This document shows, piece after piece, positions 37,503-45,321 of a stretch of 58,290 nt of DNA; the stretch's first letter is position 1; the number at the start of each line of letters is the position of its first letter. Origin of the DNA: Candidatus Bipolaricaulota bacterium. GTDB taxonomy: Bacteria; Bipolaricaulota; Bipolaricaulia; Bipolaricaulales; Bipolaricaulaceae. The position numbers and the translations under genes are program-made. The notes under the pieces were generated by a model. That model saw only the letters and a list, made by a program, of their open reading frames with translations, had not been told where the DNA came from and did not search any database. The stretch is from contig JACIWJ010000002.1 in assembly GCA_014361015.1 (NCBI GenBank), forward strand, positions 1-58,290. The letters are read 5' to 3'.

Positions 37503-38783
37503 TCAGCCGGTTCGCTCGACCCCGTGCAGGATGAACTCCGTCAGCGACGGCAACACCTCCTCAGCCGGCCGGCTCGGCTTCTCCCACAGCGCCCACCGCT
37601 GGCCGCTGAAGTGGGCGATCCCGAGAAGAGCGTAGGCAAGAGCCTCCGGATCGCAGCGGCGGATCTCCCCACGATCCATGCCCGCCGCCAGCCCGCGCAC
37701 GTACCCCTCGGCCAACCGCTCGTAGTACCACCGTCCCACGCCCTCGTCCACGAACTCCGCCTCGCGGACGATCCGGTACGCCCCAGGGTGATCCCGCACC
37801 CACTGCAGGAAGGACCGCAATCCAATACTCTCCGCCACCCGTCGATCGCCGCACCCGGCCACGGCGAGGGTCTGCCGGTGGCGGAACTGGCGACTGATCT
37901 CTCGCACCAACTCACTGAACACGGCGACCTTGCTCGGGAAGTGAAGGTAGAACGTGCCCTGCCCCACCCCAGCGAGGTAGGTGATCGTCGAGATCGTCGT
38001 CCGGTGAAACCCCGCTTGGCCGAACGCGCGCTCCGCAGCGCGCAAGAGCGCCCTCCGCGTCGCCTCCGCTCCTTCGCGATCCTCCTCCGCGGGCGGGCTC
38101 GTCGGCGCAAGAGCCGAGGCCACCCGCCGCCCGTCGTCCACCACCGCTCGCGGGCCGGCAATGCCCCTCCGGATCAGATCCGCACCCACGCGCCGCGCCC
38201 CTTTGGGAACGGCCCTGCCCCCCCACATCACGTACCGCAGGGCGAGGAAGAACACCACCCCGAGGATGGCATACGCCACCACTTCGGGATCGACACCGCG
38301 GAAGTCGCCGACCGTGACCCCTTCGCGGACGACCGCGACCAGCTCATCGCAGATCGCCCCGTAGAACCGCATCGGGATCTCCGGACTCACGAACTCCCCC
38401 TCGCGGAACACCTGGAACGTGCCCGCGTTCTCCGTGATGTAGTCGAGGAGCGTCCCATAGGCACGAAGGAGCTTCTCTCGGGGCGCGGCCGCGGCTCCGA
38501 CGGCCCGCGCCAGCCGCGCGATCAGCCTGTCTTGAAGGTCCTCGACCAGGCGCACGTAGACCTCTTCCTTGTTCGCGAAGTAGAGGTAGAACGTGCCCTG
38601 GGCGATCCCCGCCCGCCGGCAGATCGCCGACACGGAGGCACGCTCGTACCCTCGCTCGCGGAACACCTCCGCCGCGTTGCGCAGGATGTGCTCCAGCGTC
38701 TTCTGGCCGCGGGCCGTGCGTGGCAGCCGCGTGATCGCCTTCTCCCCCCCTGTTCCCATGCCTCCCCGCCAGGATCCCCTCAC
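37503..38783 (-). CDS. Tandem (double) TetR-family regulator
   Basis: 426 residues holding two complete TetR units in one chain. The first HTH (ILRNAAEVFRERGYERASVSAICRRAG..GTFYLYFANKEE) is followed by a ligand domain to about residue 210. After a charged Pro/Ala linker, a second HTH (LLRAAERAFGQAGFHRTTISTITYLAG..GTFYLHFPSK) with its own ligand domain ends the protein. TetR proteins are normally single-unit dimers, so this could be a pseudo-dimer or a four-HTH dimer. GTG 38783 is chosen for GGAGGAACG just upstream; ATG 38759 and GTG 38822 are alternatives. It precedes livHMGF. Confidence 0.85.
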   Translation of the reverse strand: MRGSWRGGMGTGGEKAITRLPRTARGQKTLEHILRNAAEVFRERGYERASVSAICRRAGIAQGTFYLYFANKEEVYVRLVEDLQDRLIARLARAVGAAAAPREKLLRAYGTLLDYITENAGTFQVFREGEFVSPEIPMRFYGAICDELVAVVREGVTVGDFRGVDPEVVAYAILGVVFFLALRYVMWGGRAVPKGARRVGADLIRRGIAGPRAVVDDGRRVASALAPTSPPAEEDREGAEATRRALLRAAERAFGQAGFHRTTISTITYLAGVGQGTFYLHFPSKVAVFSELVREISRQFRHRQTLAVAGCGDRRVAESIGLRSFLQWVRDHPGAYRIVREAEFVDEGVGRWYYERLAEGYVRGLAAGMDRGEIRRCDPEALAYALLGIAHFSGQRWALWEKPSRPAEEVLPSLTEFILHGVERTG

Positions 38784-38792
38784 CGTTCCTCC

Positions 38793-38810
38793 GCCCGCCC
38801 GCGGGCGGGC
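38793..38810. promoter_or_regulatory. Candidate autoregulatory operator of the double TetR gene
   Basis: A perfect 18-base palindrome, GCCCGCCCG/CGGGCGGGC, between the presumed -10 (38830-38835) and GTG 38783. Its inner 16 bases match the liv-leader palindrome at 12 of 16 positions, including the central CCGCGG. Confidence 0.45.
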
Positions 38811-38829
38811 TTCCTGGCGCACGGGAGGG

Positions 38830-38892: not shown

Positions 38893-41775
38893 TCACGGGA
38901 CCACGTGCACCAGGAGGCCTACCTCGCCGGTGAGGTCGGCGTCGTCGGTCACGAGCAAGACCACGAGGTAGAACCCCGGCTCGGGGAACGTCCACTCCAC
39001 GCGGATCCCCTCGGCATCGAAGATCCCGTCACCGGTGAAATCCCAGTCATAGCTCACGATCTCCCCCAGTGACGCCCGCGCATCGAACGCGACGGGCTCC
39101 CCCGCCCGAGGCACGGGCGGCTCCCACGTGAAGTCGGCCACCGGGGGTTGGTACACGACCACGACCGGCCGCGGCCTCTGCCAGGCCCCGAACAGCACCT
39201 CTTCGGTTGCACCCGGCGGGAGCGGCACCACCGCCGCCGGGGTGGTGAGCTCGTAGCGCTCGGGAAGAGAGATCGCATCCACCATCACCCGGTACTCGCC
39301 CCCCGGGAGGTCGAGGAACGAGAACGCCCCCGCCGGATTGGTGTGTCCCTCCGCGACCATCTCCCCGTCCCGCTCGAGGACGAGGCGCACCCGACCCAGT
39401 CCTCCCTCGCCCACGTCGCGGGTCCCGCTCCGGTCCTGGTCGTCGTACACCACACCGGAGATCTCACCCAACCGCTCACAGGGGATGTGCACCCTCGTCC
39501 GGCCGGCGAGCGCGACCTCGACCTCGAGGGGGAGCTCGACCCGAGGGCGGACCCCCGGCGGCAGGCGGTCGACGCTCAGGCCGTAGGTCCCCGGAGAGAG
39601 GGGGGGAAACAGGAACCGCCCGTCGGCCCCGCTCGCCACTTGGGTCCCCGCCACGGCCAGCACCGCCCCCGCTACCCCTGGCTCCCCAGGGTCCGGACGG
39701 CCGTTCTCGTTCTCGTCCACGAACACCGTGCCTTCGACCCACCCCTTGACGGGGAGGAACGGCGGGGTGGCGACGAACCCATGTTCGAACCCCACCTCCC
39801 CGTACAGGGCGCGCGCTTGGCCCGAAGGGCCCCACCGCACATCGAGACGGGCGGTGATCGAGGTGGCGGGGGACAAGGCAAATGGGATCCCGATCCCCAC
39901 GCTTCCTCCATCCGAGGCGTGGTGGAAACCGAGGACGAGGCCGGCCGGCGTGCGCCACTCGACGCTGACCTGGTTCGTCATCGTCACGAAGCTCTCGTCG
40001 CGGTAGGCGACCGCCTGGCGGAGGTCGAGGGCCGCCTTCGTCTGACCCCAGGCGATGGTGAATCGCTGACCGTACGCCTCGACCCGCTCGCTCGTCGCCA
40101 CGATGGGGTCCTCCTCCCACCCCCACCGTCCGCTCAGCCGGAACACGAGCCAGGACACGTCAATGACCATCGCCAGATCGAGGAGGCGGTTCCGCCGGTC
40201 CACGGCCGGACCAGGACCGAACCCCTGGTGGCGACGGAACGCCGCCGTTGCGAACAGCGCCACCGGGTATCCCGTGGGGGACCAACCCACCGCCGCGGTG
40301 AGGTCGGAGTAGACCATGGTTGGGACGAGGGCGATGTCGAGGACGTTGTCCCTCTCCCACCGCGTTGTGAACGCGAGCCCCACCGGATCCAGCGCCAGCT
40401 GCCCGGAGAGGCTAATCCCCGCCCTGTCCGCGCGGGGACTGGGGAATCGTGGTCCCACTGCGTAGGCATCGGCGTGGAGATCGACCGTTGCCCCCCCCGT
40501 GGCGGTAAGGCCAACGAGGAGCGCTACGTCGAGGTACGGACCCGCGACTGCCAGTCCCGTCTCCCCATGCAGGGCGAGGCCGTCCTGGATCCAGCCCGTG
40601 ATCCACAGGGCCCCGGCACGGACCTGGTTGACCCCTCGCGCCTCCCGAACCGCCATCCCCAGCTCCCCCCACGTCCCGAGCCATGCCCCGCGCGCGGCGA
40701 ACCTCCCCTCGTCCCCCCGCCACCCCGTGATGAGGGCCGCGCATCCGCTTGCAGTTGTGACCCCGGCGCTCATCCCATTGGCCCCCAGCGGGAGGAGGAG
40801 CGACGAGAGATCCAGGCCGACCTCGCCCACCTCGGCCCACACCCACCCTTGATCGTAGCGCACTGAGAACCAGGACAGGCTGTACGGGTTCGGCCCCCAC
40901 GGTCCGGTCACGTGCAGGTGGAGGCCCACCTCTCCTCCCAAGACCTCGCCCCCCCCGGACAGGGAAAGGAGCGAAAGCCGACGACCGGAGATGGGGTCGT
41001 ATCCGAGCCTCCCCCCCAGGCGCATCTCCAGCTCGGAGAGGACCGTCCCCATGATCACCTCCGGGCCGGGGGGAAGGACCGTCGTGAACCACGCCGCGCG
41101 GGCCTCGGCCCCCTCGCTGGAGAGGACGGTCACGGTGAGGAGATCGCGCCCCGGCGCCGCCCCGGCGGGGATGGAGAGGGTCAAGCGGAGGGTCGCCCGC
41201 TCCGCTGGGGGAAGGGCGGTCTCGCGCGGCTCGACCTGCACCGGCCAGCCGTGGGAGGAGGAGACGTCCGCGGTGAACCGGTCGAGCACGTTCCCCCGGT
41301 TCACGATGACAAGCTCGTAGCTTACGGAATCACCGGGTTGGCCCTCGCCCGCCCGCGGGGGGAGGACCTCCACCCCGGCCAGCGTCAGAACGCGGACCGT
41401 CGCCTCCGCGTACCCCTCCTCGCCGTCCGCGGCGAGGGCCCGGAGCCCCACAGCGTGAGCGCCCGCCTTCGCCGTGCGCGGCACGACCACCGTCAAGAAC
41501 ACCCCCTCCTCCCCTCCTGGGGGCAAGATGACAGCGTCCGGAACGCCGAGGTGGTCCCAGCCCTCCGGGACGTGCGCGGCGAGGGTCACCTCGACCGAGG
41601 ACGGGCCCGGATTGGCCACCGCGAACACCACGATCGCAAGGTCGCCGGGGGCCACCGTGCGCGGCGGGGAGAGGACGGAGACGGCCGCCCCCACCCCAGC
41701 CCACGACCCCACGAGCAGGCCCGCCACCACGGCCAATCCTCCCCCTGCGCCCACGCGCGCCGATCGGGAAACCAT
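38893..41775 (-). CDS. Large secreted beta protein with SdrD-B and PKD domains
   Basis: 960 residues. Signal peptide (about 1-30, GGGLAVVAGLLVGSWAGVGA), then two NEW3/CARDB-like beta domains (about 30-235) and a long amphipathic beta region with alternating hydrophobics (about 245-680) that could be a barrel. Two SdrD-B-like repeats follow (GTVFVDENENGRPDPGEPGV near 690; GVVYDDQDRSGTRDVGEGG near 780), then a C-terminal PKD domain (ADFTWEPPVPRAGEPVAFDA.., YDWDFTGDG; about 870-958). This looks like a cell-surface or outer-membrane adhesin or assembly protein. It is the last gene of the riboswitch-controlled cluster. Confidence 0.75.
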   Translation of the reverse strand: MVSRSARVGAGGGLAVVAGLLVGSWAGVGAAVSVLSPPRTVAPGDLAIVVFAVANPGPSSVEVTLAAHVPEGWDHLGVPDAVILPPGGEEGVFLTVVVPRTAKAGAHAVGLRALAADGEEGYAEATVRVLTLAGVEVLPPRAGEGQPGDSVSYELVIVNRGNVLDRFTADVSSSHGWPVQVEPRETALPPAERATLRLTLSIPAGAAPGRDLLTVTVLSSEGAEARAAWFTTVLPPGPEVIMGTVLSELEMRLGGRLGYDPISGRRLSLLSLSGGGEVLGGEVGLHLHVTGPWGPNPYSLSWFSVRYDQGWVWAEVGEVGLDLSSLLLPLGANGMSAGVTTASGCAALITGWRGDEGRFAARGAWLGTWGELGMAVREARGVNQVRAGALWITGWIQDGLALHGETGLAVAGPYLDVALLVGLTATGGATVDLHADAYAVGPRFPSPRADRAGISLSGQLALDPVGLAFTTRWERDNVLDIALVPTMVYSDLTAAVGWSPTGYPVALFATAAFRRHQGFGPGPAVDRRNRLLDLAMVIDVSWLVFRLSGRWGWEEDPIVATSERVEAYGQRFTIAWGQTKAALDLRQAVAYRDESFVTMTNQVSVEWRTPAGLVLGFHHASDGGSVGIGIPFALSPATSITARLDVRWGPSGQARALYGEVGFEHGFVATPPFLPVKGWVEGTVFVDENENGRPDPGEPGVAGAVLAVAGTQVASGADGRFLFPPLSPGTYGLSVDRLPPGVRPRVELPLEVEVALAGRTRVHIPCERLGEISGVVYDDQDRSGTRDVGEGGLGRVRLVLERDGEMVAEGHTNPAGAFSFLDLPGGEYRVMVDAISLPERYELTTPAAVVPLPPGATEEVLFGAWQRPRPVVVVYQPPVADFTWEPPVPRAGEPVAFDARASLGEIVSYDWDFTGDGIFDAEGIRVEWTFPEPGFYLVVLLVTDDADLTGEVGLLVHVVP

Positions 41776-41864
41776 CCTCCCATGTCTACGCAGCCAGCCC
41801 GCGGGGGGGGAGGAAGGAGGTCCGCGATGGAAGGGAAGTCCTGCCCGGCGCGGGGCTCGCCCTG

Positions 41865-42869
41865 CTACGGGGCGCGGGACGCGAGAAGCTCCGTCAGAGC
41901 CTCGACATCCCGCTCATCAACCCGCCCGTCGTTGTTGAAGTCAAACGCCCGAACGTTGGTCTGAACCTGCGGGCTCATCCACGCCGCCCGGAACAGCTCC
42001 ACGTCCCGCTCGGCAAACACCTCATCCCCGTCGAGGTCCTCGTACAGGCCATCCCCGTCCAAGTCGCGGGAAACCGCGTCCCCAGCGACCGGAGCGAGGG
42101 ACAGAGGCCGCACCCGGAGGTAGGCCTGGGCGGCGATGATCTCCTCCCCCCCGGGGTCCACCCGCGCTACCACAAGGTACATCCCGGGGGCAGGGCGAAG
42201 CTCCGTCTCCACGACCAACCGCCGTACCCCGCCGGGGAGGCAGGGGAAGGGATCCGGCTCGATCTGCACCACCTGCCCACCCTGTGAGTCGTAGATCTGG
42301 ACCTCGGACCGCACCTGGCGCAGGTTCACCACCCCGGGGTTGGCGAACTCCATCACGACCCACAGCGGGTTCAGGCCCCCGAACTCCAAGCGGCGGACCT
42401 GCCCCTGGGCTGGCGCCGTTCCCACCGTGGCATAGACCTTGATCCCGATGCGCCTGGCCACCATCACCGTCGTCCCCCCGTGGTCCACCGGCCGCGGCTC
42501 GCCGTGGACGAACACGATCCCCCAGTGCGTACCCACCGGGGCGTCAGCGGGGACGTGGAGCGTTCCCCTCACTTCCCGAGTCTCGCCGGGGCCCAACGAG
42601 AAGGAACCAGGAGCCACCGAGAGCCACGCGGCAAGCGAGCGCGGGAGCGTTCCCGGAGGGTAGAACCGATTCCCTCCCGCTTCATCGCGATCCCAGTCCC
42701 CAACGTAGACGGAGAACGTCTCCGCAACCGCCGTCTCATTGCGGGCGAGGAACGAGAACGTGTAAACCTGGCCCGGGGCCACGTTGAGATCCACTTCGAG
42801 GAGGTCGACCTCGAGGGCCAGGCCCGTGAGGCCCAGCAGCAGGGTCGAGATCCAGAGGAGGTTCCTCAT
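41865..42869 (-). CDS. WxL-interacting-protein-like (DUF916/DUF3324) protein with C-terminal dockerin
   Basis: 334 residues from ATG 42869. A signal peptide (NLLWISTLLLGLTGLALE) precedes two Ig-like domains laid out as in Firmicute WxL-interacting proteins: VDLNVAPGQVYTFSFLARNET.. with PGETREVRGTLHVPADAPVGTHWGIVF, then FANPGVVNLRQVRSEVQIYD..PGMYLVVARV. Instead of the usual membrane anchor it ends in a dockerin: two calcium loops (DLDGDGLYEDLDGDE; DFNNDGRVDERDVEAL) at about 275-330. It would be exported and may anchor or chaperone the neighbouring W-x-L proteins. The -10 TATAAT lies 7 bases before the start. Confidence 0.75.
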   Translation of the reverse strand: MRNLLWISTLLLGLTGLALEVDLLEVDLNVAPGQVYTFSFLARNETAVAETFSVYVGDWDRDEAGGNRFYPPGTLPRSLAAWLSVAPGSFSLGPGETREVRGTLHVPADAPVGTHWGIVFVHGEPRPVDHGGTTVMVARRIGIKVYATVGTAPAQGQVRRLEFGGLNPLWVVMEFANPGVVNLRQVRSEVQIYDSQGGQVVQIEPDPFPCLPGGVRRLVVETELRPAPGMYLVVARVDPGGEEIIAAQAYLRVRPLSLAPVAGDAVSRDLDGDGLYEDLDGDEVFAERDVELFRAAWMSPQVQTNVRAFDFNNDGRVDERDVEALTELLASRAP

Positions 42870-42876
42870 CGCGGGG

Positions 42877-42882
42877 ATTATA
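42877..42882 (-). promoter_or_regulatory. -10 box of the dockerin gene, leaderless
   Basis: A consensus TATAAT 7 bases before ATG 42869. No good -35 at 16-18 bases (CTGACC is 20 bases upstream). An inverted repeat GCACCG/CGGTGC that includes the stop of the gene upstream sits just before it. Confidence 0.45.
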
Positions 42883-42893
42883 CGCACCGCGGC

Positions 42894-43817
42894 CTACGGT
42901 GCGGTCAGCGTGTACGTGAAGCGAAGCTCGTACGTGCCGGGAACCGTGGTGTCGTAGTCCACCCGGAGCCGCAGGGCGACCTCCAGCCACAGGCCGGTAC
43001 CGGCAGTCCCCCCCGCTACCCTCTGCTGCCCCGTGGACAACCCGACGTAGCTCGTCTGGGGGCCAGCGACGCCTGGCCCAACGGCACTGACCCGCCATTC
43101 GAGGTGGGAACACGGTTTGCCGGGCGGAGGTTGGGACCCGGTGTACGCCCACGTCGCCGCATCAGCGGCCACGTGGAGAGACCACGCGGTAGCGCTCGAC
43201 ACCGTGATCCGCTGCGCCGGGGAAACCTCGCGGTAGCCCGCATCGTAGTGGGCGAGGGCCAGCTCCCCTAGATCCACGAGCTGCGGGGTCACGACCAGCG
43301 CCTGGATGATCCCTTCCCGGTAGTGCACGCGCACCGCCACCCAGTCGAGCTCGGCATAGCCCTGGGCACGAACCCGAACCCAAAACAGCCCGCCCCCCAG
43401 CTCTCCTGGTGTCCAGGTCCGGCCCCAGACGTCGGTGCTTCCCCCCAGTACGTGGTCTCGCCAGTGCACGGGGTGGAGGCGCCCGGTGGTGTAGCCGGCG
43501 GTCGTCCAGGTCATCCCCCCGTCACCGGAGAGCTCGACGGCGAGGGCCCCCGACCGCGTCGGCGACCTCCGCGCCCGGACGAGGACCTCGATTCCCACGA
43601 TCTCGCTCCCCACGGGTACGACGATTCCAAAGCCCCCGTAGCGGTGGACCTGGTCCAGCCCGACAGCGAACGGGCCGTCGGGGGCATGCGCCCCCGGGCC
43701 ATCCACGAACTGACCCTCATCGGCTGACGGACTCAGCCAGCCCGTGTCCTGGGCCAGTCCCGTGGCCCCCAGGAGGAACAGCGTCAGCAGGAGGACCCGC
43801 CGGTTCAAGGCCTTCAT
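42894..43817 (-). CDS. Secreted W-x-L-like surface protein (long paralogue)
   Basis: 307 residues from ATG 43817. Signal peptide (VLLLTLFLLGATGLAQ), then a beta-sandwich-like N-terminal half with a discoidin- or flagellin-like pattern (VGSEIVGIEVLVRARRS.., GGMTWTTAGY). The C-terminal half (about 185-307) is related to the protein at 43891-44400: shared W-x-L segment (TAWSLHVAADAATW), AGGTAG..LWLEVALRLRVDYD and an identical FTYTLTAP ending. Probably exported and held on the surface. It lies between a strong hairpin and the dockerin gene. Confidence 0.7.
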   Translation of the reverse strand: MKALNRRVLLLTLFLLGATGLAQDTGWLSPSADEGQFVDGPGAHAPDGPFAVGLDQVHRYGGFGIVVPVGSEIVGIEVLVRARRSPTRSGALAVELSGDGGMTWTTAGYTTGRLHPVHWRDHVLGGSTDVWGRTWTPGELGGGLFWVRVRAQGYAELDWVAVRVHYREGIIQALVVTPQLVDLGELALAHYDAGYREVSPAQRITVSSATAWSLHVAADAATWAYTGSQPPPGKPCSHLEWRVSAVGPGVAGPQTSYVGLSTGQQRVAGGTAGTGLWLEVALRLRVDYDTTVPGTYELRFTYTLTAP

Positions 43818-43840
43818 CGCCCATCTGCTCCCAGGAAGAA

Positions 43841-43875
43841 GGGCAGCCCGGATCACCTGTGAACCCGGGCTGCCC
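43841..43875 (-). terminator. Strong hairpin terminator between two W-x-L-like genes
   Basis: GGGCAGCCCGG pairs with CCGGGCTGCCC (11 bp), extended inside by GTTCAC/GTGATC with one mismatch. On the minus-strand transcript it is followed by UUCUUCC. It lies 16 bases after the end of the 169-residue protein gene and would separate or attenuate expression of the next gene. Confidence 0.6.
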
Positions 43876-43890
43876 ACGTTCGAACCCTCA

Positions 43891-44400
43891 TCACGGGGCA
43901 GTGAGCGTGTAGGTGAACGCCAGGCTGTAGTCACCAGCCGGGTCGTTCTCCCAGCTCACGAGGACCTGGAAGTCCATGGAGAGCTGGATGTTCCCGCCCC
44001 TCGTTCCCTCGGCCACCTTCTTCGCCCCCGTCGTGAGGGCGGTGAACGTGTCCGCGTACGAGGACACGCGGCCATCCGCGGTCCCAGCCTGGAACAGAAG
44101 GTCGGTGGACGGCTTCGCCCACGGCCCGGTCCACGTGCTGGCATCGGCTGCGACGCTCAGGGCCCAGCTCTTGTTGCTCCAGATCTGGATCCCCTGCGCA
44201 GAGAGAACGGTCTTCCCCCCTGCGTCGTAGTCGCCCTCGGTCAGCGCGCCGAAGTTGATCGTGCTCGTCGAGAGCGAGAGCCGGATCAACGTCGGCACCG
44301 TGAACTGCGCCGTCGAGCCCGCCGTGACCTGCGCCAGCCCGGCCACGCCCACCAGCAGCCCCAAAGCCAAGATACCAACGACCAGCGTACGAACCTGCAT
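43891..44400 (-). CDS. Small secreted W-x-L-like protein under c-di-GMP riboswitch
   Basis: 169 residues from ATG 44400 (GGAGGTG Shine-Dalgarno). Signal peptide (TLVVGILALGLLVGVAGLAQ), then a single all-beta domain: QFTVPTLIRLSLSTSTINFG, YDAGGKTVLSAQGIQIWSNK, the W-A-L motif (SWALSVAADASTW) and the FTYTLTAP end. The order resembles the WxL domain of Gram-positive surface proteins, but it is too short and divergent for a firm family call. The Shine-Dalgarno sits inside a hairpin directly after a c-di-GMP aptamer, so translation should respond to the second messenger. Confidence 0.75.
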   Translation of the reverse strand: MQVRTLVVGILALGLLVGVAGLAQVTAGSTAQFTVPTLIRLSLSTSTINFGALTEGDYDAGGKTVLSAQGIQIWSNKSWALSVAADASTWTGPWAKPSTDLLFQAGTADGRVSSYADTFTALTTGAKKVAEGTRGGNIQLSMDFQVLVSWENDPAGDYSLAFTYTLTAP

Positions 44401-44405
44401 CACTG

Positions 44406-44528
44406 CACCTCCAAGAAGTTTGAGTTGTGCTTCTCTTGGAGGTGTTTCGGCAGCCCAGCCATCTCCCGACAGGAGACCTGTGGCTTTGCGTCCCCGGGTC
44501 GCCCCGGGTTTGCCCGTTCGATCACCTC
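44406..44528 (-). ncRNA. Cyclic di-GMP class I (GEMM-I) riboswitch with SD-sequestering platform
   Basis: On the minus strand the aptamer core (44515-44447) shows GGGCAAACC, P2 stem CCCGGG-GCGA-CCCGGG with a GNRA tetraloop, the conserved GACGCAAAGCC, a P3 stem starting with AGCC and closing with GGCT, and GGGCTGCCGA. Outside it GAGGTG (44528-44523) can pair with CACCTC (44444-44439) to close P1. The same CACCTC region can instead pair over 11 bp (44444-44434 with 44416-44406) with TCTTGGAGGTG, which is the Shine-Dalgarno of the downstream gene. Ligand binding should favour P1 and free the Shine-Dalgarno, an ON switch. Confidence 0.9.
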
Positions 44529-44677
44529 TTGTTTTGGCTGAAAACCGTTCTCCTGTGCTCGCGAACCCCTCGCCCTGGCTCCCACCTCCTTCCCATACGA
44601 TCCTAGTGGCCCGACCCACGGGCTTTCGGCCAGCGTCCACCTCCCCGCGTCGCGTCCGTCCAGCGGCGTGGGCACGT
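44529..44677 (-). other. Leader region between gene 44678-45151 and riboswitch 1
   Basis: No gene is seen. A small hairpin GCCCG/CGGGC (GCCCG-TGGGT-CGGGC on the minus strand) follows the upstream gene. TAGGAT and a GGGAAGGAGGTGGGAGCC purine stretch occur downstream of it, but no convincing promoter is visible, so the second riboswitch may be served by read-through from the upstream promoter. Confidence 0.35.
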
Positions 44678-45151
44678 CTATCCCTCGACTGCGTAGATCA
44701 GGGTGAGCGTACGCTCACCGCTCCACCCGGCCTCGCCCAGGTTCACTCGGTAGTCGAGCACGATCTCGTGCACGCCGGGCAGACCCCGCGCGAGGACCAG
44801 CCCTTCCGGCTGAACCGGCCTGTATTCTCCACTCCCGATGCGCAGCTCCACAATCCCCCAGGGGGAGAGGTCTGAGGAGCGAACGACGAGTGTCCACGGC
44901 ACGTTGCTGCGCACGACAAGGGTAACCGCCTGCCGCAGCTCGACGGGTTCCGAGCGATCGGGCACCGGAGAGGGGATCTTCACCGCAACGGGGATCTCCC
45001 GGCCGGAATCCTTCATACCCAGAACGGAGAGACGAGTGAGCGCGGGAATGGTGACCGTGGCTTGCGCCCCCACCGTGGTGGACCTCGCCCAACCGAGGAC
45101 ACTCCCCGCCGTCAGCCCGACCAACGCCAGCACAACCGCCTTCCTGACCAT
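44678..45151 (-). CDS. Small secreted W-x-L-like protein abutting a c-di-GMP riboswitch
   Basis: 157 residues from ATG 45151. Signal peptide (AVVLALVGLTAGSVLGWA), then one beta domain similar to the protein at 43891-44400: ATVTIPALTRLSVL, VPWTLVVRSSDLSPW (W-T-L) and C-terminal RTLTLIYAVEG. No Shine-Dalgarno lies before ATG 45151; the last conserved bases of a c-di-GMP aptamer (TGCCGA) end 3 bases upstream. First gene of the cluster, read from the promoter at 45294-45321. Confidence 0.75.
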   Translation of the reverse strand: MVRKAVVLALVGLTAGSVLGWARSTTVGAQATVTIPALTRLSVLGMKDSGREIPVAVKIPSPVPDRSEPVELRQAVTLVVRSNVPWTLVVRSSDLSPWGIVELRIGSGEYRPVQPEGLVLARGLPGVHEIVLDYRVNLGEAGWSGERTLTLIYAVEG

Positions 45152-45154
45152 GCT

Positions 45155-45236
45155 TCGGCAACCCAGCCATCCCTGAGGGATCTGTCGGCTTTGCGCCCCC
45201 ACGTTGCCGTGGGTTTGCCCTTATCGGACGGTCGAG
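45155..45236 (-). ncRNA. Cyclic di-GMP class I (GEMM-I) riboswitch at the start codon
   Basis: The minus-strand core (45220-45155) shows AGGGCAAACC, P2 CCCACG-GCAA-CGTGGG with a GNRA tetraloop, GGCGCAAAGCC, P3 AGCC..GGCT and GGGTTGCCGA, all conserved in the GEMM-I family. The aptamer ends 3 bases before ATG 45151, leaving no room for a classical expression platform. CTGACC upstream (near 45242-45237) could pair with GGTCAG spanning the second and third codons. The two aptamers in this cluster share the core but not the platform. Confidence 0.9.
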
Positions 45237-45293
45237 GTCAGCTGCCCGGTATTCCCCTCCTTTTCCCAGTCTCGGGCCTTGGTAGTTGAAACC

Positions 45294-45321
45294 ATTATAT
45301 ACGGGTGCCTTCCCGCGGCAA
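45294..45321 (-). promoter_or_regulatory. Promoter of the c-di-GMP-controlled cluster
   Basis: -35 TTGCCG (45321-45316), 16-base spacer, -10 TATAAT (45299-45294, consensus). Transcription would start near 45287 and give a leader of about 135 bases with the riboswitch at its 3' end. Confidence 0.7.

Follow-up and report, generated by a model that had tools for sequence, protein, structure and literature searches.

What does a run of exported, β-rich proteins build at the surface of a bacterium when its genes stand behind two riboswitches for cyclic diguanosine monophosphate (c-di-GMP)? The question is raised by five genes (positions 38893–45321) in a 58,290-nucleotide window of contig JACIWJ010000002.1, from a member of Bipolaricaulota (formerly Acetothermia/OP1), a deep-branching uncultured phylum. 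The probable answer, in our judgment, is a pilus-type surface fibre, built in a chaperone-usher-like manner with a chaperone from the lineage of the WxL-interacting proteins (WxLIP). The claim is that the system works like a chaperone-usher system, not that it is a member of the chaperone-usher or WxL systems; it is filed under neither because the defining sequence features of both were sought and are lacking here.

All five open reading frames lie on the minus strand, as do all features of the operon given below, and each opens with a signal-peptide-like stretch, confirming the five consecutive genes for exported β-rich proteins listed in the first-pass annotation of this DNA. A strong σ70-type promoter (TTGCCG-16-TATAAT, 45294–45321, 10/12 match) heads the operon, where 0.1 such promoters were expected from shuffled sequence and one was found. 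Behind it follow riboswitch 1, PIL2, riboswitch 2, PIL1, ADH, CHAP, and USH. The host genome (1.50 Mb, 93.6% complete) encodes Omp85, as do 37 of the 40 genomes of its order, and the host is hence a diderm by gene content. Searches of Pfam and NCBIfam with the five operon proteins gave nothing for PIL1, PIL2, or ADH, and matched none of the five to usher, chaperone, or WxL families.

USH (P0004, 960 aa, 38893–41775) is predicted from its model to be an outer-membrane β-barrel with an usher-like fold, flanked by immunoglobulin (Ig)-like domains. It had been described as an SdrD-B/PKD protein, and both domains are matched in Pfam (SdrD_B, 1e-16; PKD, 3e-10), but the barrel between them and the N-terminus had been missed. 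The order along the chain is two N-terminal NEW3/Ig domains, the barrel, SdrD_B, a transthyretin-like (TTR) domain, and PKD. The AlphaFold2 model has a predicted local distance difference test score (pLDDT) of 87.8 overall and mostly above 90 in the barrel (residues 249–669, 39769–41031), which comprises about 26 strands with a longest inter-strand loop of 10 residues and no inserted plug. Its best PDB matches in Foldseek are ushers, namely FimD (9fy9, 1.6e-14; 3rfz, 1.8e-14) and PapC (7lhg, 7.8e-12), with alignments that span 700–890 columns and rank ahead of every other barrel.

Hidden Markov model comparison places PIL1 (P0001, 169 aa, 43891–44400), its remote paralogue PIL2 (P0002, a small exported subunit of 157 aa, 44678–45151), and the C-terminal half of ADH (P0005, 307 aa, 42894–43817) in one family. 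PIL1, which ends in FTYTLTAP, is the putative major pilin. Between the signal peptide and the shared domain, PIL1 and PIL2 carry a short alternating-apolar stretch (STAQFTVP and QATVTIP), whose equivalents in relatives read VHVRWTI and NVNASFTI; a regular-expression count of this strand pattern matched signal peptides and hence was not used. In the alignment ADH lacks the N-terminal extension, and a separate whole domain occupies its place. Because this second domain sits exactly where PIL1 has the extension, the layout of ADH, including the C-terminal repeat of the small-protein domain that the first-pass annotation had overlooked, is that of pilus tip adhesins. In the AlphaFold2 model of ADH (pLDDT 92.9), the N-terminal part is a jelly roll resembling a carbohydrate-binding module (CBM; Foldseek match to CBM22, 4xup, 4.4e-6), and the C-terminal part matches the filament proteins TLP-1a (9ikj, 4.5e-5) and TLP-1b (9ikk, 2.2e-4), both with probability 1.00, the half covered by each match being taken from alignment lengths and fold types. 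The tip adhesin CupB6 and PapG (in the PapG-PapD-PapC complex) appear further down the same list. By sequence, the PIL profile touches TLP-2 (E = 0.01) starting at N-terminal residue 6. With a barrel of usher-like fold and a tip-like subunit of two domains, what had been called a surface module becomes a system resembling pilus assembly.

CHAP (340 aa if read from GTG, 41865–42887; the ATG at 42869 is the more probable start) consists of two Ig-like domains and, in the lineage of the window, a C-terminal dockerin. Against six Firmicutes WxLIP (DUF916-DUF3324), HHalign scored it at 95.8%, and at 96.8% with the wider family, over 211–214 columns covering both domains; the reference set (L112–L117) was retrieved with a consensus-like probe, and the sequences aligned were those of the plasmid records that it matched. 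CHAP itself has no Pfam WxLIP match (PF06030 and PF11797), and a profile search of the PDB with CHAP returned dockerins only. Dockerin-less relatives reach the Pfam family WxLIP_PGBD just below its cut-off (E = 2.8e-5), which is exceeded in 2 of 100 genomes of the phylum. By these alignments CHAP is a remote homologue of Gram-positive WxLIP over the PGBD and HBD domains, upholding the relationship first suspected from its two-Ig layout. Thermotoga maritima, a diderm outside the phylum that served as a control genome, also has a WxLIP_PGBD match above the cut-off; the lineage is thus not confined to Gram-positives. In a published model, a hairpin strand of WxLIP inserts into WxL beside the WxL N-terminus (PMC10599100). 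Since this is the donor-strand principle, we infer that CHAP holds subunits likewise, as a putative periplasmic chaperone that donates a strand to them.

Taken by analogy, the parts list would equal that of a chaperone-usher pilus: a major and a minor subunit, a two-domain tip, a two-Ig chaperone, and a barrel with periplasmic β domains. PIL1 and PIL2 would be the major and minor subunits of the fibre, and ADH its tip, with a carbohydrate-binding-like head on a subunit domain that has no N-terminal extension. CHAP would cap subunits in the periplasm by strand donation and then pass them to USH, whose barrel in the outer membrane would let the fibre assemble through it and keep the fibre in place. 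Strand exchange would follow, each incoming subunit replacing the CHAP strand with its own N-terminal strand.

The aptamers that had been recognized before each of the two small genes are matched by RF03167 (c-di-GMP-I-GGC; curated cut-off 59 bits), at 62.8 bits before PIL1 (E = 1.7e-12, 44523–44445) and at 61.3 bits before PIL2 (E = 4.4e-12, 45228–45153). Both also pass RF01051 (c-di-GMP-I), and the host genome holds no further c-di-GMP-I-GGC match. Among relatives, 9 of 21 pairs show compensatory changes on both sides (P2/P3 and P1 examined). The base adjoining P2 is G in all 70 aptamers; with this position taken, on our own reading, as nucleotide 20 of Vc2, G is the base of c-di-GMP-selective members, and cyclic GMP-AMP (cGAMP) is considered an unlikely ligand. 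We assign both aptamers to the c-di-GMP-I-GGC class, with c-di-GMP as the predicted ligand. The choice of A or G at nucleotide 20 sets selectivity for c-di-GMP versus cGAMP (PMC6456294). GGDEF proteins are present in all 40 genomes of the order, two of them in the host.

In riboswitch 2 (44406–44535), the 3′ arm of the closing stem P1 (GAGGUG/CACCUC) doubles as the 5′ arm of a 12-bp hairpin (44444–44406) that buries the Shine-Dalgarno sequence GGAGGUG and is present in the minimum free energy (MFE) fold (z = −3.2). Both competing folds are possible in 13 of the 13 operon-bearing genomes. P1 pairs at 100% in this set, and five of the genomes carry a double change from A-U to G-C; cells changed on both sides are more numerous than any of 500 shuffles produced. 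The hairpin pairs at 88.8% across relatives. Because ligand binding should hold P1 and free the ribosome site, riboswitch 2 is predicted to be a conserved translational ON switch: with c-di-GMP bound, P1 would be kept, the hairpin broken, and PIL1 and the genes behind it favoured. Riboswitch 1 (aptamer and P1, 45136–45246) is arranged differently, with the PIL2 AUG inside the 3′ arm of P1, where GCAUGGUCAGG pairs against CUGACC. In the relative L054 this stem has 12 continuous pairs, and in the g6/g7 genomes a GUC to GCC change in the second codon of PIL2 is compensated in the opposite P1 arm. Since binding should trap the PIL2 start codon in P1 and block initiation, riboswitch 1 is predicted to be a translational OFF switch, on a weaker case than that for riboswitch 2. 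The earlier suggestion that the genes are turned on by c-di-GMP thus fits riboswitch 2, whereas riboswitch 1 looks like an OFF switch. Transcription would start from the single promoter with c-di-GMP acting on translation, and a rise in c-di-GMP would alter both the balance of subunits and their amount.

By sequence comparison, the gene set occurs throughout the phylum. The order aptamer-PIL2-aptamer-PIL1-ADH-CHAP-USH is kept in 13 genomes, all of which retain the riboswitch matches, and aptamers recur on subunit genes across the phylum, in keeping with the first-pass proposal of direct (predicted) riboswitch control. Arrangements in other genera and families include CHAP-USH-aptamer-PIL-aptamer-PIL (L039, L069), three aptamers and three subunits with CHAP and USH (L151), aptamer-PIL-aptamer-PIL-CHAP-USH (L155–L157), and aptamer-PIL-CHAP-USH (L167); many loci from other families were chosen for a nearby riboswitch, so these arrangements show recurrence, not frequency. 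Of the 40 genomes of the order, 38 carry c-di-GMP-I-GGC aptamers, with 2–8 copies each. For the phylum the count is 94 of 100 genomes, among them all 38 of good quality, compared with none of 14 control genomes. CHAP has relatives in 84 of the 100 genomes, 37 of the 38 good ones, and 35 of 39 genera. Relatives of USH are full length in many families, and the tally of 100/100 genomes for USH includes matches to single Ig-like domains.

Several further aptamer loci were observed. Two full aptamers stand upstream of a single subunit gene in L157 and L155, and short degenerate aptamer-like copies (25–30 bits), possibly tandem, directly precede a full aptamer at L156:4575-4748, L155:9123-9298, and L166:4763-4940. 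Other genomes of the genus contain a second aptamer cluster (L035:6559-13377; also L033, L038, and L058) without counterpart in the host, in which one aptamer each precedes, in this order, a subtilase (PF00082), a ribbon-helix-helix-like protein of about 115 aa that begins MQVTLY or MQVTMY, and a DUF7507/LTD surface protein of about 1600 aa. A conserved protein of about 105–115 aa (MQVTLYYSGED...), with a weak RHH_1 match, repeatedly adjoins such aptamers (L052:12702-13155, L040:7088-7564, L068:4826-5400, L071:8473-8940, L048:6890-7429), and at L041:6770-10185 an aptamer precedes an exported right-handed β-helix (NosD-like) protein of 1053 aa. The gene directly downstream of the operon in the window (37503–38822, minus strand) encodes a protein of 439 aa that comprises two complete tandem TetR units.

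A number of results weigh against a chaperone-usher-like pilus. The Foldseek template modelling (TM) scores of USH are low (0.28/0.38; 0.45 for the barrel alone), and the Ig-like domains account for part of its match to ushers. HHalign gives 0.2% for USH against known ushers and 0.3–3% for CHAP against E. coli PapD-type chaperones (FimC/SfmC/YadV/EcpB; PF00345), the E. coli references being shallow in both cases, and the usher family PF00577 is found in 0 of 100 phylum genomes. The usher barrel is built of 24 strands and holds a plug domain inserted after strand 6 and before strand 7, whereas USH has about 26 strands and no plug. The TLP-2 match weakens to E = 0.67 with a wider PIL profile and is marginal by sequence. 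For riboswitch 1, the MFE structure of the window sequence by itself shows no P1 (z = −1.2), and there is no good Shine-Dalgarno sequence. As WxLIP likewise show no similarity to the same E. coli chaperones by HHalign, the difference between the two comparisons of CHAP is not a general Ig signal.

One rival reading is that the operon is a true but very divergent chaperone-usher branch, all three parts of which descend from the common ancestor of chaperone-usher systems, with Gram-positive WxL/WxLIP as an usher-less relative. The usher fold match of USH and the layout of tip and subunits suit such descent, and in HHalign global mode the subunit family is slightly nearer to E. coli pilins (36%) than to WxL (4%), neither value being significant. 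Lys150 of CHAP is invariant among its relatives, and the conserved Lys in the strand RIGIKVYATV may recall that in the PapD strand IKLFYRP. However, neither the chaperone nor the usher shows significant sequence homology, and a barrel of 26 strands without a plug departs from the family; we regard this descent as possible, if somewhat unlikely. Tentatively, and as a rather doubtful extension, WxL/WxLIP and the Gram-negative chaperone-subunit pairs might be the ends of one ancient donor-strand system, with Bipolaricaulota keeping an intermediate that combines a WxLIP-type chaperone, an usher-like barrel, and pilin-like subunits, and with two riboswitches of opposite sign swapping one subunit for another as c-di-GMP rises.

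No fibre would be made if the operon encoded a surface complex of the WxL type known from Firmicutes: the small proteins would attach to the wall or surface and be stabilised there by the WxLIP-like protein, and the barrel would merely anchor the complex in the outer membrane. This reading draws on the homology of CHAP to WxLIP over both domains and on the described WxL clusters, which likewise combine a small subunit, a large subunit with a C-terminal subunit domain, and a WxLIP (PMC10599100). The small proteins, however, cannot be upheld as WxL proteins. Pfam WxL (PF13731) matches none of the 34 + 30 members of the subunit families and none of 100 phylum genomes, although it detected the Lactococcus positive control, and HHalign against WxL gives a non-significant 1.5–23%, confined to the last 18 columns. 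The W-x-L motifs reported earlier stand at one per subunit domain (the first is present in 73 of 88 family members), but the second position, at the C-terminal end, reads [YF]-T-x in 73 of the 88, and two W-x-L occur in one. Because HHalign is significant for neither, the subunits are filed in neither the WxL nor the pilin family. In addition, CHAP has no C-terminal transmembrane helix, ending in the dockerin or, in relatives, after domain 2, the WxLIP motif NQIDKxxxYFDLK is absent from it, and the best structural matches of the barrel are ushers. We therefore consider a WxL-type complex improbable.

The dockerin type I-like domain at the C-terminus of CHAP (41889–42044) is a real Pfam match (7e-7), as first noted, but relatives in other genera (L069, L039, L064, L071, L040, L050) do not have it and the host genome contains no cohesin, which rules it out as a key part; it is a lineage-specific addition. 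A c-di-GMP-controlled adhesin or carbohydrate-degradation module, in which the barrel is a general anchor and the CBM-like protein and dockerin recruit polysaccharide or enzymes, is very improbable in spite of the CBM22-like fold of the ADH N-domain and the dockerin itself, since the genome lacks a cohesin, most other genera lack the dockerin, the operon has no catalytic domain, and subunit genes multiply beside CHAP and USH (three in L151).

We conclude that this pilus-like system under riboswitch control is real, extends across the phylum, and has a chaperone of unexpected lineage; its protein families are not known for such a task. The first-pass interpretation is thus partly supported, and a surface or biofilm role is likely. 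If the fibre reading is correct, the entire candidate phylum possesses a route of pilus assembly that has yet to be described, that escapes usher and pilin profiles, and that is controlled directly by RNA sensors of c-di-GMP, the biofilm signal. It would also tie the chaperone-usher principle to the Gram-positive WxL/WxLIP proteins, whose function is disputed, and give the TLP-1 environmental filaments a possible family of assembly partners. With the paired riboswitches it could be tested compactly whether c-di-GMP alters the composition of the fibre besides its amount. Among the open papers searched, none connects WxL with chaperone-usher systems in this way, none deals with riboswitches of Bipolaricaulota, and a pilus-like assembly set is not reported as a c-di-GMP-I target.

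Compared with chaperone-usher pili (type 1, FimA-FimC-FimD-FimH; P pili), the operon shares subunits, a two-domain tip, a two-Ig chaperone, and an outer-membrane barrel whose best PDB matches are FimD and PapC, as well as an N-terminal extension carried by subunits and not by the tip. It differs in the absence of Pfam usher or PapD matches and of HHalign similarity, in the plugless barrel of about 26 strands with C-terminal SdrD_B/TTR/PKD domains, in a chaperone of the WxLIP kind, and in direct riboswitch control. With the Firmicutes WxL/WxLIP clusters (PF13731, PF06030, PF11797) it has in common a CHAP homologous over PGBD and HBD, a set of small subunit, large subunit, and WxLIP genes, and subunits that keep one W-x-L and a C-terminal end like Y-x-x-x-x-[YF]-T-L-x-x-P; the second motif in Bipolaricaulota subunits is [YF]TL, however, the WxL profile does not match, the host is a diderm with an outer-membrane barrel, one lineage has a dockerin, and CHAP lacks the transmembrane anchor. 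The environmental filaments TLP-1a and TLP-1b (9ikj, 9ikk; CryoSeek), described here from the PDB titles and chain counts of their cryo-electron microscopy entries, resemble the ADH C-terminal domain in fold and the subunit profile weakly in sequence, a link that is not significant with the wider profile; their subunit has 236 residues and about 15% identity. Finally, like other RF03167/RF01051 riboswitches, the two aptamers pass the curated cut-offs and have G at the specificity position, but here they form a pair within one operon with predicted opposite outputs.

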